From Vulcanimicrobiota bacterium (GTDB lineage Bacteria > Vulcanimicrobiota > Xenobia > Xenobiales > JADMJV01), in the NCBI GenBank assembly GCA_019637395.1, contig JAHBVR010000031.1, positions 1 to 46,565 on the forward strand: a stretch of 46,565 nucleotides of DNA, written 5' to 3'. The position numbers were made by a program, and so were the translations under genes. Of this stretch, positions 2,409 to 18,948 are shown piece by piece (within the stretch, counting starts at the first letter, position 1; each line of letters opens with the position of its first letter). Under the pieces are notes generated by a model. It ran no database searches. It was not told the origin of the DNA and was given only the letters and a program-made list of their open reading frames with translations.

Positions 2409-4532
2409 TCAGTAGGCGCGGACGGTGATGTGGACCTCCTGGGTGGCGCCCTCGGGGGTGCGGGCCTGGATGCGGTGGGGGCCGGGGTGGAGGGGCCAGT
2501 CGGCCTCCACGGGGAGGCCGTCGATGGTCCAGTGGACGGGGCCGCCGCTGGCCTGGAGTTGCAGGGTCTGGTAGCGGCGGTCGAGGCGGGGGTCGATGAC
2601 GAAGGTGTCGCCATCCTGTGGGAATTGAATGTGCAGGCCGGCTTCCACGGGTAGGCCCTGGGGCCGGGCCCAGCCGGCATAGTCGTGGCCGTAGACGGGG
2701 CCGGAGGCGCGGTGCATCGCGCATGTTTCCTGGGTGGGCCGGGTGAACCATTCCGAGAGGGTGCCCTGGCAGTGGGCCCCGGGAAGCTGGCCGGAAGCGC
2801 TGCAAACCCGGCGCTTTACAAGGCCGGGTGGAGGAGTGAAGGGCTGGGGAGGGCGGGAACGGTGCAGGGCCAGCATGACTTCGCGAAAGATGGGTCCGGC
2901 CCCGGCCACTCCGGAGACGTCCTGCATGGAGCCGCCGGCGATGGGCCCGGCCCATACTCCCACGGTGTAGCGAGTGCTGTAGCCAAGCGTCCAGTTGTCG
3001 CTGTACTCCCGGGAGGTCCCGGTTTTGACCGCGCAGTCGAAGGGTAACGCCAGCACCGAGTCGTGGCCGAAGGCGGGAGCGCGGGCGGCCGGGTCTTTCA
3101 GGATGTCGCTCAGCAGAAAAGCCGTTTGGGGCGAGAAGACCCGCCGCGATGTCTGCGCGGGGCGGCCTCTTACCCAAACTTCCGCTCGCCACTGGCCGCC
3201 GTTGGCCAGAGCCATATAGGCGCGGGTCAGCTCCAGCAGGGTCACTTCGCCTCCGCCCAGGGTCAGGCTGAGCCCGTAGTGCCGGGCGGATTGATCCAGA
3301 GAGTCGAGGCCGAGCTTGTGCAGCCGCTGGAGCAGGGGGGCGACGCCCACCCGGTGGGCCAGGCGCACGGCCGGCACGTTGTAGGAACTGGCCAGGGCGG
3401 TGCGCAGGCGCACCGGTCCATGGAAGGTGCCGTCGTAGTTGGTGGGGGCAAAGTCACCCGTGCTGGTGGCGTAGTGCACGGGCAGGTCGGGAATCAGGCT
3501 GGCCGGCGTCAGGCCGCTTTCCAGGGCCATGCCGTAGGTGAAGGGTTTGAGGGCGGAGCCGGGCTGGCGTGGCGAATCGCTGAGGTCGACCTGGTTGCGG
3601 CGGAAGTCGGGAGAGCCGACCAGGGCGCGCACTTCACCGCCGGCGTTGTCCAGCACCACCACGGCCGCGCCGTCCAGTCCACGCCGGCGCAGCAACTCGA
3701 CCTGGGTGCGCACGATGCCTTCCACTTCGCGCTGCAGGTCGCCGTCCAGGGTGGTTTGCACGCGCCCGCTTCCTGGGGGGAGACGGCGCTCGACCTGGCG
3801 GCAGAAGTGGGGGGCCAGCAGCGGGTCGTGGTGGGCCTTGATTGGCAGCGGTTCGGCCAGCGCCTGCCGGTACTGGTCGGTATCAATCCAGGCCAGCGTG
3901 AGCATTCGCTTGAGCACCCAGTGCTGCCGCTCCCGGGCTTTTTCAAAATGCAAAAGCGGATTATAAATATCGGGTCCGCGCGGGATTCCGGCCAGCAAGG
4001 CGGCCTGGGCCAGACTGAGCGAGGCGGCCGGGCGGCCGAAGTAAAAGCGGGCCGCGCTTTCCGCCCCGAAAGTGTTGTTGCTGTAGGGGACCCGGTTGAG
4101 GTAATGCTCGAGAATGGCGGGCTTGCTCAGCGAGCGTTCCAGGCGTAGGGCCTGCAGGCTTTGCCAGGCCTTCTCCAGCCAGCCGCGCGGGCGCCCGTTC
4201 AGGTTGGCGATCAGTTGCTGGGTGAGGGTGGAGCCGCCGGCCACCACCCGGCCGGCCCGCAGGTTGTGGTAGGCGGCCGCCAGCGTGGCGGGCGCGTCCA
4301 CGCCCCAGTGAGCGTAGAAGCGCTGGTCCTCGGCGGCCAGGGTGGATTGGACCAACCAGGGGGAGATCTGCTGGAGAGGCACGGGCAGGTTGTCGTCGGC
4401 GCGCAGCCGGCGGCCCTGGCGGTCGAGCAGCTCCAGGCGGTTGGCCGGGGTTACGTCTGGCATCGGCAGACGGTAGAAAGCCAGCCCGAGAGCGAGCAGA
4501 CTTCCCAATAGCCAGCGCCGCTTTGGTCTCAT
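2409..4532 (-). CDS. pbpC: Penicillin-binding protein 1C
   Basis: Bifunctional class A peptidoglycan synthase of 707 residues, close to the usual PBP1C length. An N-terminal signal anchor (residues 8-22) is followed by a GT51 glycosyltransferase domain with the catalytic Glu in AAEDQRFYAHWG (about residue 68) and GGSTLTQQL (99-107). The transpeptidase domain has SALK (near 326), an SYN motif and KTGTS (near 503). The last roughly 90 residues form the BiPBP_C domain that marks PBP1C. The start ATG shares four bases (ATGA) with the stop of the alpha-2-macroglobulin gene, so the two are translated together, matching the known yfhM-pbpC pairing. PBP1C is thought to repair cell wall together with the macroglobulin. 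Confidence 0.95.
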   Translation of the reverse strand: MRPKRRWLLGSLLALGLAFYRLPMPDVTPANRLELLDRQGRRLRADDNLPVPLQQISPWLVQSTLAAEDQRFYAHWGVDAPATLAAAYHNLRAGRVVAGGSTLTQQLIANLNGRPRGWLEKAWQSLQALRLERSLSKPAILEHYLNRVPYSNNTFGAESAARFYFGRPAASLSLAQAALLAGIPRGPDIYNPLLHFEKARERQHWVLKRMLTLAWIDTDQYRQALAEPLPIKAHHDPLLAPHFCRQVERRLPPGSGRVQTTLDGDLQREVEGIVRTQVELLRRRGLDGAAVVVLDNAGGEVRALVGSPDFRRNQVDLSDSPRQPGSALKPFTYGMALESGLTPASLIPDLPVHYATSTGDFAPTNYDGTFHGPVRLRTALASSYNVPAVRLAHRVGVAPLLQRLHKLGLDSLDQSARHYGLSLTLGGGEVTLLELTRAYMALANGGQWRAEVWVRGRPAQTSRRVFSPQTAFLLSDILKDPAARAPAFGHDSVLALPFDCAVKTGTSREYSDNWTLGYSTRYTVGVWAGPIAGGSMQDVSGVAGAGPIFREVMLALHRSRPPQPFTPPPGLVKRRVCSASGQLPGAHCQGTLSEWFTRPTQETCAMHRASGPVYGHDYAGWARPQGLPVEAGLHIQFPQDGDTFVIDPRLDRRYQTLQLQASGGPVHWTIDGLPVEADWPLHPGPHRIQARTPEGATQEVHITVRAY

Positions 4533-16583: not shown

Positions 16584-17087
16584 CTGGAGTTTTTCGGCGG
16601 GGGTGGTCGCCCACCTGTGGGAAAACCAGGGCGATTTGCAGCAACTGGAGGTGCTGCGCCGCAGCCCGGCAGACTTCGTTGTCGAGTCGGCGCTTTGAGT
16701 ATTGACACGGTTGGTGACGGTGTTTCGCTGTAGCGAACTCTGGCTGTGGGGAGAGGTGGTGGGCCGAGAGCGCACCAGGCGGCAGGTGCTAGAGGTGGCT
16801 GTGCGGATAGATTCTCGTCTGCACCTGTGGTTTTTAATTTTGCCAGTGATGTCGGCCTGGAGGAGCTGGTCGTGGCCTGGCCCAACTCTCTTTACTGCCG
16901 GTTTTTCCCCTGGCTTTGTTGAGCTGGCTCCCCAGCGGCCTGCTGAAGTTGGCCGGCGATGTGCGCTGGTTGCCGCGGAGCAGTTGGCGGAAGTTCTCGA
17001 GTTTCTCCATGCGGGCTGTTTTGGTGCTGCTGCTGGTCTGGTTGCTGGCGGCCAGAGGGCTTTCTTCAGGTCATTGAGGAGGCTTAT
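16564..17087 (+). pseudogene. Decayed plus-strand membrane-protein-like gene(s)
   Basis: This explains the roughly 300-base gap between the neighbouring minus-strand genes. Three plus-strand frames in turn read like protein. The first is 16564-16698 (MTVLLATWSFSAGVVAH... ending VVESAL), a 44-codon frame with a membrane helix. A second stretch at about 16740-16830 contains GRERTRRQVLEVAVRIDSRL. The third is about 16870-17087, ending SMRAVLVLLLVWLLAARG and so on, another hydrophobic helix. Each ends in a stop and hands over to a different frame, as expected for a gene hit by several frameshifts. No family is recognised, and chance open frames in G+C-rich DNA remain possible. Confidence 0.25.
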
Positions 17088-17400
17088 ATCTGAGGAGGTC
17101 TTTCAGGCCTTCGGCCAGCCACTCGCGCCATTCTTCAGGATAGGGATGGCTGCTGTCGTCGAACTTGGAGAATTGTTCGCTCATTCCGTGTTTATGGCGA
17201 ATCGAGAGGTCGTCGCCGCTGTGGTAGTTGGCGTCGTGGGGCCCGTAGAAGTCCAGGTGGGGGCCTTGTTTTACTCCCTGGTGGTAGTAGGCCAGCGAAC
17301 TCACCGAGCCGTCCGCGGCCAGTTGGGCCACCCAGCCGATGCCGTTCCGGTCGTGGTTCCAGGGAAAGGGGATTTCTTCGGGTTGTAAGCGACCGTCCAT
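17071..17400 (-). CDS. Small protein in radical SAM operon
   Basis: A 109-residue soluble protein of unknown function. It has no signal peptide and no Cys. A W/H/D-rich core (YYHQGVKQGPHLDFYGPHD, then NYHSGDDLSIRHKHG) and an acidic C-terminal helix (PEEWREWLAEGLKDLL) can be seen. Its ATG (17400) touches the TGA of the radical SAM gene (17401-17403), so it is made from the same message. The many His/Asp residues could form a metal or catalytic site. It could be a partner, a substrate or an immunity-type protein of the operon; nothing in the sequence decides this. Confidence 0.6.
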   Translation of the reverse strand: MDGRLQPEEIPFPWNHDRNGIGWVAQLAADGSVSSLAYYHQGVKQGPHLDFYGPHDANYHSGDDLSIRHKHGMSEQFSKFDDSSHPYPEEWREWLAEGLKDLLRYKPPQ

Positions 17401-18558
17401 TCAGGCTTCCAGTGGTTCTTCGATGAGTTCGAAGAGGCCGTTGTCGAAAGGTTCTCCCGGTGCTTTTCGGCGCAACTGGATGCGTTCGCGCAGGCCTTTT
17501 TCGGCCATTTTGAGGGCGCGGTGGTGGCAGTATGGGTTATTGCCGGGGCGGTCGAAGAAGACGTGGGCGGTCCAGGTGCAGCCGCCCCGGCACAGGTCGG
17601 CGTGTTCGCATTTTTGGCAAAAACCCCAGAGGTGTTCGAGGGAATTTTCACTATTGATGTTCAGGGCGGGGGAGTTAAGGATCATGTCGCGGATGCTTTT
17701 TTCGCGGATGTTCCCGCCCCTGTAGGCCTGGGTGGGCAGGGAGGGGCAGCCTTTGAGGGTGCCGTCAGCCTCCAGCCCCAGGCCATGTTGGCCGGCCTGG
17801 CAGCCGGCCCAGACATGCCATTCATCGCCTTCGCTGCGCAGGATGCGGTCGAAGGGGCCGTAGTAGCCGACATTATTGCCGGGAGCGATGAAGACTCCCT
17901 CGGCCTCGGCGCGTTGCTTGAGGCGGGCCAGTTGGGGGAAGAGGTCGAGCAGTTCATAGGGTTGCAGTAGGATGTCGGGCTGGTCGGCGGCGTTACCCAT
18001 GGGCACGGTCATCTGCCATTGCCAGGCTTTCATGCCGGCGTCGCGCTGGAGTTCGTAGGCCCGGTGGATTTCCGGGGCGGTCAGGCGGTTGAGTTGGGTG
18101 TTGCAGGCCACGCGCATGCCGGCCTCGCGCAGGTTTTCCAGCGACTGGTAGCAGGCTTTCCAGGAGCCTTTTTTGCCGCGCAGCCGGTCATGGGTGGCTT
18201 CCAGGCCGTCGATGGATACCGAAGTCTGGCGGATGCCGGCCTGAACCATGCGGCGGGCCAGCTCTTTGGAGATGCCGTAGCCTCCGGTGGTGAGAGTGCA
18301 GGCCATGCCTTCATCTCCGATAGCCCTCGCAATTTCCAGCCAGTCTCTGCGCAGGAAGGCTTCGCCGCCGATGAGGGTGACTTCGTCGATGCCGACTTCT
18401 TTGAGTTGGCGCACTACCTCCAGGGCTTCGGCGGTGGTGAGTTCGTTGGGGCGGGCTTTGCCGGCTCGCGAGCCGCAGTGGCTGCAGGCCAGGTTGCAGG
18501 CGAGAGTGATCTCCCAGACGGCGTAGCTGCGCCGCTGGTAGGCTCGTTTAGCGGCCAG
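17401..18558 (-). CDS. Radical SAM/SPASM peptide-maturase-like enzyme, probable CTG start
   Basis: A 385-residue enzyme if read from CTG at 18558. The radical SAM motif CNLACSHC (residues 21-28) binds the 4Fe-4S cluster. GGEAFLRRDW follows. The C-terminus is a canonical seven-Cys SPASM domain: C-x-EADGTLKGC, then CQKCEHADLCRGGC, then a last Cys (YCHH), binding auxiliary clusters. Such enzymes modify peptides or proteins in cis-operonic partners. No ATG, GTG or TTG lies between the upstream in-frame TGA (18570-18568) and the cluster motif; the first GTG (18414) would delete it. CTG at 18558 sits seven bases after GAGG, which overlaps that TGA. It lies between the proline-rich lipoprotein gene and a small gene it abuts. 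Confidence 0.85.
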   Translation of the reverse strand: MAAKRAYQRRSYAVWEITLACNLACSHCGSRAGKARPNELTTAEALEVVRQLKEVGIDEVTLIGGEAFLRRDWLEIARAIGDEGMACTLTTGGYGISKELARRMVQAGIRQTSVSIDGLEATHDRLRGKKGSWKACYQSLENLREAGMRVACNTQLNRLTAPEIHRAYELQRDAGMKAWQWQMTVPMGNAADQPDILLQPYELLDLFPQLARLKQRAEAEGVFIAPGNNVGYYGPFDRILRSEGDEWHVWAGCQAGQHGLGLEADGTLKGCPSLPTQAYRGGNIREKSIRDMILNSPALNINSENSLEHLWGFCQKCEHADLCRGGCTWTAHVFFDRPGNNPYCHHRALKMAEKGLRERIQLRRKAPGEPFDNGLFELIEEPLEA

Positions 18559-18569
18559 GAGAAAGCCTC
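18559..18569 (-). promoter_or_regulatory. Ribosome-binding site overlapping upstream stop, deciding a CTG start
   Basis: Reading the minus strand, GAGG (18569-18566) uses two bases of the lipoprotein's TGA stop, followed by a seven-base spacer and CTG at 18558. Ribosomes ending the lipoprotein would re-initiate here. This is the only spacing-compatible start upstream of the iron-sulfur motif. Confidence 0.45.
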
Positions 18570-18948
18570 ACTGAGGTGGAGCGCCATGGACGGGCACGGG
18601 AGGTCCCTGGCCGGAAGGAGGAGCCGGAACTGGTGACTTGGGTTTTGCCGGCGTTTGCGCTCGGGGAGCGCCGTAGACTTTGGCGGCCGGGCGCTCTTCA
18701 GGGCTGGGCGTGGGGCTGATGCTGGCGCTGGGGGTCGGTTGCAGGCTGGGGGGAGGCCCTCCATAGACAGCCGTGGGCGCGCAGCCGCTGATGACTCCGA
18801 CGGCCAGGGCGAAGCCCAGGGCGGCCCAGCCGGAGAGGCGGCGGACTTTGGCTTCCTCGCGCAGCATGGATTCGGCCGCCTGCTCCAGGCGTTTTTGCAA
18901 GGCCTGCGGGTCTTTCCAGGACTTGCGGGGGAGAAGCGGTTCTTCCAT
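18568..18948 (-). CDS. Proline-rich lipoprotein with three V(Y/H)GxP motifs
   Basis: A 126-residue protein, possibly the substrate of the radical SAM enzyme encoded directly downstream in the same frame. Residues 41-55 are hydrophobic and end in the lipobox-like VISGC56. The mature part is Pro/Ala/Ser-rich and carries VYGGPPP (61-67), VYGAPRA (91-97) and VHGAPPQ (120-126, the very C-terminus), spaced about 30 residues. From the ATG at 18948 a charged 40-residue leader precedes the hydrophobic segment. A start at the ATG at 18867 would give a normal lipoprotein signal (MLREEAKVRRLSG...). Neither has a clear ribosome-binding site. Repeated YGxP-type motifs beside a SPASM enzyme suggest a modified peptide, but this is inference. 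Confidence 0.65.
   Translation of the reverse strand: MEEPLLPRKSWKDPQALQKRLEQAAESMLREEAKVRRLSGWAALGFALAVGVISGCAPTAVYGGPPPSLQPTPSASISPTPSPEERPAAKVYGAPRAQTPAKPKSPVPAPPSGQGPPVPVHGAPPQ

Follow-up and report, generated by a model that had tools for sequence, protein, structure and literature searches.

The window, by which we mean the whole 46.6-kb contig analysed here, from the little-studied phylum Eremiobacterota, carries on its minus strand a lipoprotein gene, a gene for a radical SAM/SPASM enzyme and an ORF of 109 residues. Their features are as follows.

18568..18948, minus strand: putative substrate lipoprotein, 126 aa, with a PlpY-like helix, a hydrophobic segment, a lipobox with Cys56 and a proline-rich tail bearing XYG sites
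18850..18936, minus strand: PlpY-like helix, residues 5-33 (LLPRKSWKDPQALQKRLEQAAESMLREEA), in the signal-peptide n-region (BLASTP, hhalign, PlpY profile scan)
18781..18834, minus strand: hydrophobic h-region plus lipobox (GFALAVGVISG-C56), lipoprotein signal (sequence; GC kept in three orthologues)
18754..18768, minus strand: XYG site 1, VYGGP (kept in 3/3 orthologues)
18664..18678, minus strand: XYG site 2, VYGAP (kept in the sister genome, missing from genome G017)
18577..18591, minus strand: degenerate site 3, VHGAP, predicted to be unspliced (comparison with the sister genome, whose locus L009 has VYGAP)
17401..18558, minus strand: predicted radical SAM/SPASM splicease of PlpX type, 385 aa counted from the probable CTG start (62% identity to PlpX; TIGR04103, 636 bits; tree)
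18475..18498, minus strand: radical SAM motif CNLACSHC (CxxxCxxC) (sequence; alignment of homologues)
17527..17802, minus strand: SPASM domain with seven invariant cysteines (alignment; Pfam PF13186)
17071..17400, minus strand: orphan ORF, 109 aa, abutting the enzyme (TGA/ATG, 17403-17398; codon-position GC like that of its neighbours)

The lipoprotein opens with a charged n-region of 38 residues, followed by a hydrophobic stretch that leads into ISGC at residues 53-56; on inspection this matches the bacterial lipoprotein pattern [LVI][AST][GA]C, and Cys56 is the predicted site of cleavage and lipidation. No Nif11-type leader was recognised in the protein by Pfam or NCBIfam. As a preliminary description of this DNA had noted, three V(Y/H)GxP motifs follow at about 30-residue spacing (VYGGP61, VYGAP91 and VHGAP120, 30 and 29 residues apart), the last ending two residues short of the C-terminus; when the 71-residue tail was shuffled 100,000 times, three V[YH]GxP motifs never arose, and two xYGxP motifs arose in 0.05% of the shuffles. 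Sites 1 and 2 are VYG, but the third reads VHG; because the sister genome has VYG at this position, site 3 has probably decayed.

The gene arrangement described earlier was likewise recovered: the enzyme follows the lipoprotein in the same frame with a single TGA between them, all seven SPASM cysteines are present, and the 109-residue ORF abuts the enzyme at the TGA/ATG junction. The cysteines (C253, C271, C314, C317, C323, C327 and C344) were invariant across 12 homologues and, together with the radical SAM CxxxCxxC, reproduce the set found in PlpX. Within the enzyme ORF, no ATG, GTG or TTG codon occurs from the lipoprotein stop to the radical SAM motif; a CTG lies at 18556-18558. The sister genome (G002, locus L009) has a CTG at the same place, near 3149; there the codon runs into the lipoprotein stop, the two together reading CTGA, and AAGGA precedes it. 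In G017, a genome of a different family, the lipoprotein stop is TAG and the GTG start of the enzyme comes directly after. Since the CTG is common to the sister genome and the G017 enzyme starts with GTG at the lipoprotein stop, the CTG is probably the enzyme start, giving 385 aa. The idea that the TGA is read through, or decoded as selenocysteine, to give a fusion was rejected, because the two genes lie in different frames in the sister genome and G017 has TAG followed by a GTG start. The enzyme lacks a C-terminal tail of ~33 residues that is present in 79 of 80 related enzymes from one genome scan (hereafter the scan set), a short C-terminus that it has in common with several lipoprotein-type enzymes of Myxococcota.

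The lipoprotein and enzyme pair was found in two further genomes, G002 (92% enzyme identity) and G017 (locus L091; 68-69%). The G017 lipoprotein keeps LMPRAAWRDP, a GC lipobox and VYGGPP, and has a single site. Conservation of the YGxP motifs, on which the earlier reading depended, held for site 1, beside the lipid anchor, in all three orthologues, but site 2 was kept in two of them and site 3 was intact in G002 only. G002 has one flank of the unit in common with the window, but immediately downstream of the enzyme it carries an unrelated 428-aa ORF where the window has the 109-aa one. In G001, which belongs to the same genus, lipoprotein and enzyme are both missing from the corresponding site, and this type of enzyme occurs in 2 of 5 genus members examined. 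The 109-residue ORF is probably coding, judging from its composition. Its product, which the preliminary description could place in no family, matched none in NCBIfam or Pfam; a search of 58 related genomes returned one weak match (E 0.009) and no convincing relative, there was no homologue among the first 88 loci examined, and its predicted fold was unreliable (pLDDT 41). On these comparisons the ORF is outside the conserved unit, and the three-gene unit proposed earlier was abandoned, the third gene being an orphan in 58 relatives and replaced by a different gene after the 92%-identical sister enzyme.

The best NCBIfam match of the enzyme was TIGR04103 (nif11-class peptide radical SAM maturase 3), almost all of whose model it covers; at 636 bits it stays under the curated equivalog cutoff of 725 and is not assigned to the equivalog, and its putative substrate is not of the Nif11 class. 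The second-best family, TIGR03913 (GDL-motif-associated maturase), scored 421 bits against a curated cutoff of 591.75, and the window enzyme differs from it in its C-terminal domain. We take IPR026482 to be the InterPro entry for TIGR04103. IPR026482 includes the PlpX of Pleurocapsa sp. PCC 7319, which, with its partner PlpY, excises tyramine from Xaa-Tyr-Gly (PMC11002830, PMC10533398). The plp locus was sought among genomes sharing an order with a Xenococcus MAG and was recognised by the published core sequences, AVAAMYGVVFP and PLFPIRPLYGLPI (PMC10533398 Table 1); the precursors at one locus, L136, end in AVAAMYGVVFPW... and PLFPIRPLYGLPI, which are plp cores. Because its precursors carry these published cores, the radical SAM protein of L136 is, judged by sequence, PlpX or nearly so; it scored 824 bits on TIGR04103 and shares 62% identity with the window enzyme across the full length, 386 residues.

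In a midpoint-rooted tree, which owing to that root does not establish polarity, the window enzyme and its two orthologues formed the sister group of a clade containing PlpX, other cyanobacterial enzymes, this genome's two paralogues and a few Thiothrix and Myxococcota enzymes, and most Myxococcota enzymes fell in a separate clade. Assignments of the enzyme to the heme or PQQ type of SPASM protein were rejected on scores (636 bits for TIGR04103, 144 for heme b synthase). Comparison with solved structures returned distant SPASM relatives only. Elsewhere, the SPASM gene of locus L103 (G004:C74), a distant one (32%), has four TGA codons in frame and is either a pseudogene or a recoded contaminant. 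Spliceases are a catalogued kind of enzyme, with 27 characterised and 939 predicted systems (PMC10533398); the designation "candidate peptide-modification system" can be narrowed to a probable PlpX-type splicease.

Around the 80 scan-set enzymes, ORFs with XYG in a splice-like context were collected within 1.5 kb; such an ORF lay on the same strand at 70/80 loci and on the opposite strand at 1/80, compared with 0/18 control loci of other SPASM enzymes. Relatives of the enzyme adjoined XYG-bearing ORFs in further sets of loci as well, so that the neighbourhood comparison proposed at the outset came out in favour of the pairing of enzyme and YG-bearing protein. At the window locus, VYG sites 1 and 2 of the adjacent protein are kept in the sister genome and site 1 in G017. 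The proteins adjoining this genome's two paralogous enzymes carry five near-perfect QPVYGAP(M/F) repeats (L002, 907-1446) and ten near-perfect QP(L/M)YGV repeats (L003, 2668-3549), with the XYG units QPVYGAP and QPLYGVVIDPRPRPEP. Kinship with PlpX and the XYG ORFs at 70/80 loci lead us to predict that the V-Y-G-x-P repeats are tyramine-splicing sites (C8H9NO, -135.08 Da). That the SPASM enzyme acts on the adjacent lipoprotein at its YG motifs, as first proposed, is probable, and the two proteins make a well-supported candidate splicease-substrate pair. Two small proteins of 115 and 98 aa (L002:2755-3102 and L003:3618-3914), related to each other (~42-44% over 61 residues), flank the genome's other splicease loci and may be a further component there.

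The first ~33 residues of the lipoprotein (LLPRKSWKDPQ..., MEEPLLPRKSWKDPQALQKRLEQAAESML) resemble PlpY, the small partner of the splicease. PlpY proteins form a family of ~65 residues with the core PLLPRSAW.., encoded just downstream of the enzyme at 76 of 87 loci (the 80 of the scan set and seven others; all 76 lie in the scan set, hence 76/80), and the L136 PlpY is a member (VLPRQGWQDKQAFIKALIKAKQSLE). No separate PlpY partner gene is present in the window, where the PlpY-like segment is instead fused to the substrate; because PlpY genes accompany 76/80 relatives and not all, this does not by itself exclude the enzyme from the PlpX type. The likeness was first spotted by eye, and the shuffle and whole-set controls came later. 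BLASTP of the lipoprotein N-terminus against PlpY gave an E-value of 5e-6, and hhalign of the three orthologous N-termini against the PlpY family gave a probability of 92.7 and a score of 35.9, compared with a mean of 9.8 and a maximum of 17.8 in 300 column shuffles. Run against 18,479 translated frames, the PlpY profile reached at E<1 just two proteins outside its family, the window lipoprotein and its sister-genome orthologue. The similarity spans ~31 residues and gives a weak E-value (0.2) with a single-sequence HMM; LPRxxW is kept in the three orthologues. The PlpY-like helix fused to the substrate is likely a new element of the locus, and it carries the first reading further, adding to the N-terminus a possible function as modification leader that the preliminary description had not seen.

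No clear PlpY was found within the 1.5-kb flanks of the genome's two other spliceases (L002, L003). A PlpY-like helix was also sought in their precursors and rejected: the L003-type precursor (YPRAGWQPQQ) gave a profile probability of 4% and a score of 19 against a shuffle maximum of 14, and those of L002, L086 and L087 were negative by profile. The segment VYPRAGWQPQQ of the repeat protein (L003:2668-3549; also L092 and L105) does recall the LPRxxW of PlpY, with weak profile support.

Compared with PlpXY/PlpA of Pleurocapsa sp. PCC 7319, the window has a 62% identical enzyme with the same cysteine set, XYG in the adjacent substrate and an LPRxxW helix; it differs in that the helper helix is fused to the substrate, whereas plp has a separate PlpY, in that the substrate is a lipoprotein, whereas the plp precursors are Nif11-leader peptides, and in the missing C-terminal tail and probable CTG start of the enzyme. 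Closer in substrate type are systems of Myxococcota (L146-L174), in which membrane lipoproteins with repeated [LAV]YGxP adjoin the enzyme and several enzymes have short C-termini, although the enzymes there are 50-57% identical and mostly in the separate clade, and the lipoprotein N-terminus is a CxxCxRHV..CPFC ribbon and not a PlpY helix. A related enzyme occurred in 81/379 sampled Myxococcota genomes, and most inspected loci adjoin YGxP-repeat lipoproteins; the window is thus not alone in pairing a YGxP lipoprotein with a splicease-like enzyme, a combination common in Myxococcota. The L146-L174 systems are probably among the 939 predicted ones of Scott et al. 2022 (figure as given in PMC10533398). 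In the signal regions of many of these lipoproteins, RRxxRAA stands ahead of the hydrophobic stretch. The same ribbon was seen at the enzyme C-terminus in another Eremiobacterota family, at 5/5 loci (L093, L121-L124; E 6e-6 to 3e-4), and may be a second recruitment module of variable position. Such modules seem to shift among three states, free, fused to the substrate and fused to the enzyme, and the window helix would be the substrate-fused case for PlpY.

Taking together the homology, motif conservation, gene pairing and PlpY similarity observed in sequence, and the lack of a PlpY gene nearby, we consider it quite probable that the locus is a two-gene splicing unit, in which a PlpX-type splicease acts on a pre-lipoprotein with a built-in PlpY-like helix. 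The mechanism and function that we infer, including the chemistry, the action of the helix in cis and the succession of export and cleavage, are as follows. In the cytoplasm, the splicease would act on sites 1 and 2 of the pre-lipoprotein, cut tyramine (C8H9NO) out of Val-Tyr-Gly and rejoin the backbone, leaving alpha-keto-beta-amino acid (ketoamide) residues; a separate PlpY would be dispensable, the LPRxxW helix of the substrate n-region recruiting or positioning the enzyme. The lipoprotein would then be exported and lipidated at Cys56, and signal peptidase II would take off the n-region, helix included. Signal peptide and modification leader would be one segment, because the PlpY-like helix lies in the signal-peptide n-region and would be removed with it. 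The mature product would be a membrane-anchored, proline-rich lipoprotein showing electrophilic ketoamides, perhaps a protease trap; this is the leading guess because spliceotides have been reported as protease inhibitors (work cited in PMC11117315). Counting against such a unit are the TIGR04103 score (636 < 725), the missing tail, the brevity of the PlpY likeness (~31 residues) and the lack of a Nif11 leader.

Whether the helix is needed in cis is where a rival reading comes closest. The splicease may act on the lipoprotein while LPRxxW is only a leader or n-region alike by common ancestry and no PlpY substitute, the enzyme being active without PlpY or with another helper; Myxococcota splicease-like enzymes do pair with lipoproteins that have the Cys-rich ribbon in place of LPRxxW, and the paralogous spliceases without a clear PlpY in their flanks count against a needed cis helix. 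Yet LPRxxW is kept in the three orthologues of a locus that has no PlpY gene, and PlpY lies downstream in 76/80 homologous loci, which leaves this reading possible, if rather doubtful. With comparable tentativeness, perhaps slightly less doubt, we propose that a surface lipoprotein has a signal peptide which also serves as splicease-recruiting leader, the PlpY helix having moved in or PlpY having arisen from it; it is likewise conceivable, at about that strength, that each molecule recruits the splicease, is spliced and exported, and has its helix stripped on lipidation, leaving ketoamides at the membrane.

The other explanations fare worse. Crosslinks are common among SPASM enzymes, and the YG sites might serve another reaction (an aryl crosslink or thioether) of a peptide-modifying SPASM enzyme; given 62% identity to PlpX, the far lower scores of more distant SPASM families (heme b synthase 144 vs 636 bits) and the splice-site-like context of YG followed by a small residue and Pro, this is improbable. 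Loss of the start codon, of the C-terminal tail and of the site 3 Tyr might instead betray a decaying locus with a vestigial lipoprotein: there is no ATG/GTG/TTG start, the third site is VHG, the tail is missing, and the enzyme type was found in 2/5 genus members examined. But the frame is open, the catalytic cysteines are invariant, identity to the sister genome is 92%, and the CTG position and missing tail are common to both; since the tail is also missing in G017, whose start is a normal GTG, recent decay does not account for its loss, and we regard decay, too, as improbable. The 109-residue protein could serve as a working third member of the system, for instance as partner or immunity protein, in view of the TGA/ATG abutment, which points to co-translation, and of its coding-like GC pattern, but its lack of convincing homologues in the 58 relatives and first 88 loci and its replacement in the sister genome make this very unlikely.

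Spliceases yield reactive ketoamides in proteins and serve in bioorthogonal labelling (PMC10533398). A two-gene unit whose substrate contains the helper suggests a compact tag for the splicing of membrane proteins, and it makes the role of PlpY directly testable. Predicted backbone splicing would thereby reach beyond secreted peptides and take in membrane-anchored proteins of Eremiobacterota and, in this survey, of many Myxococcota (81/379 sampled genomes with a related enzyme).
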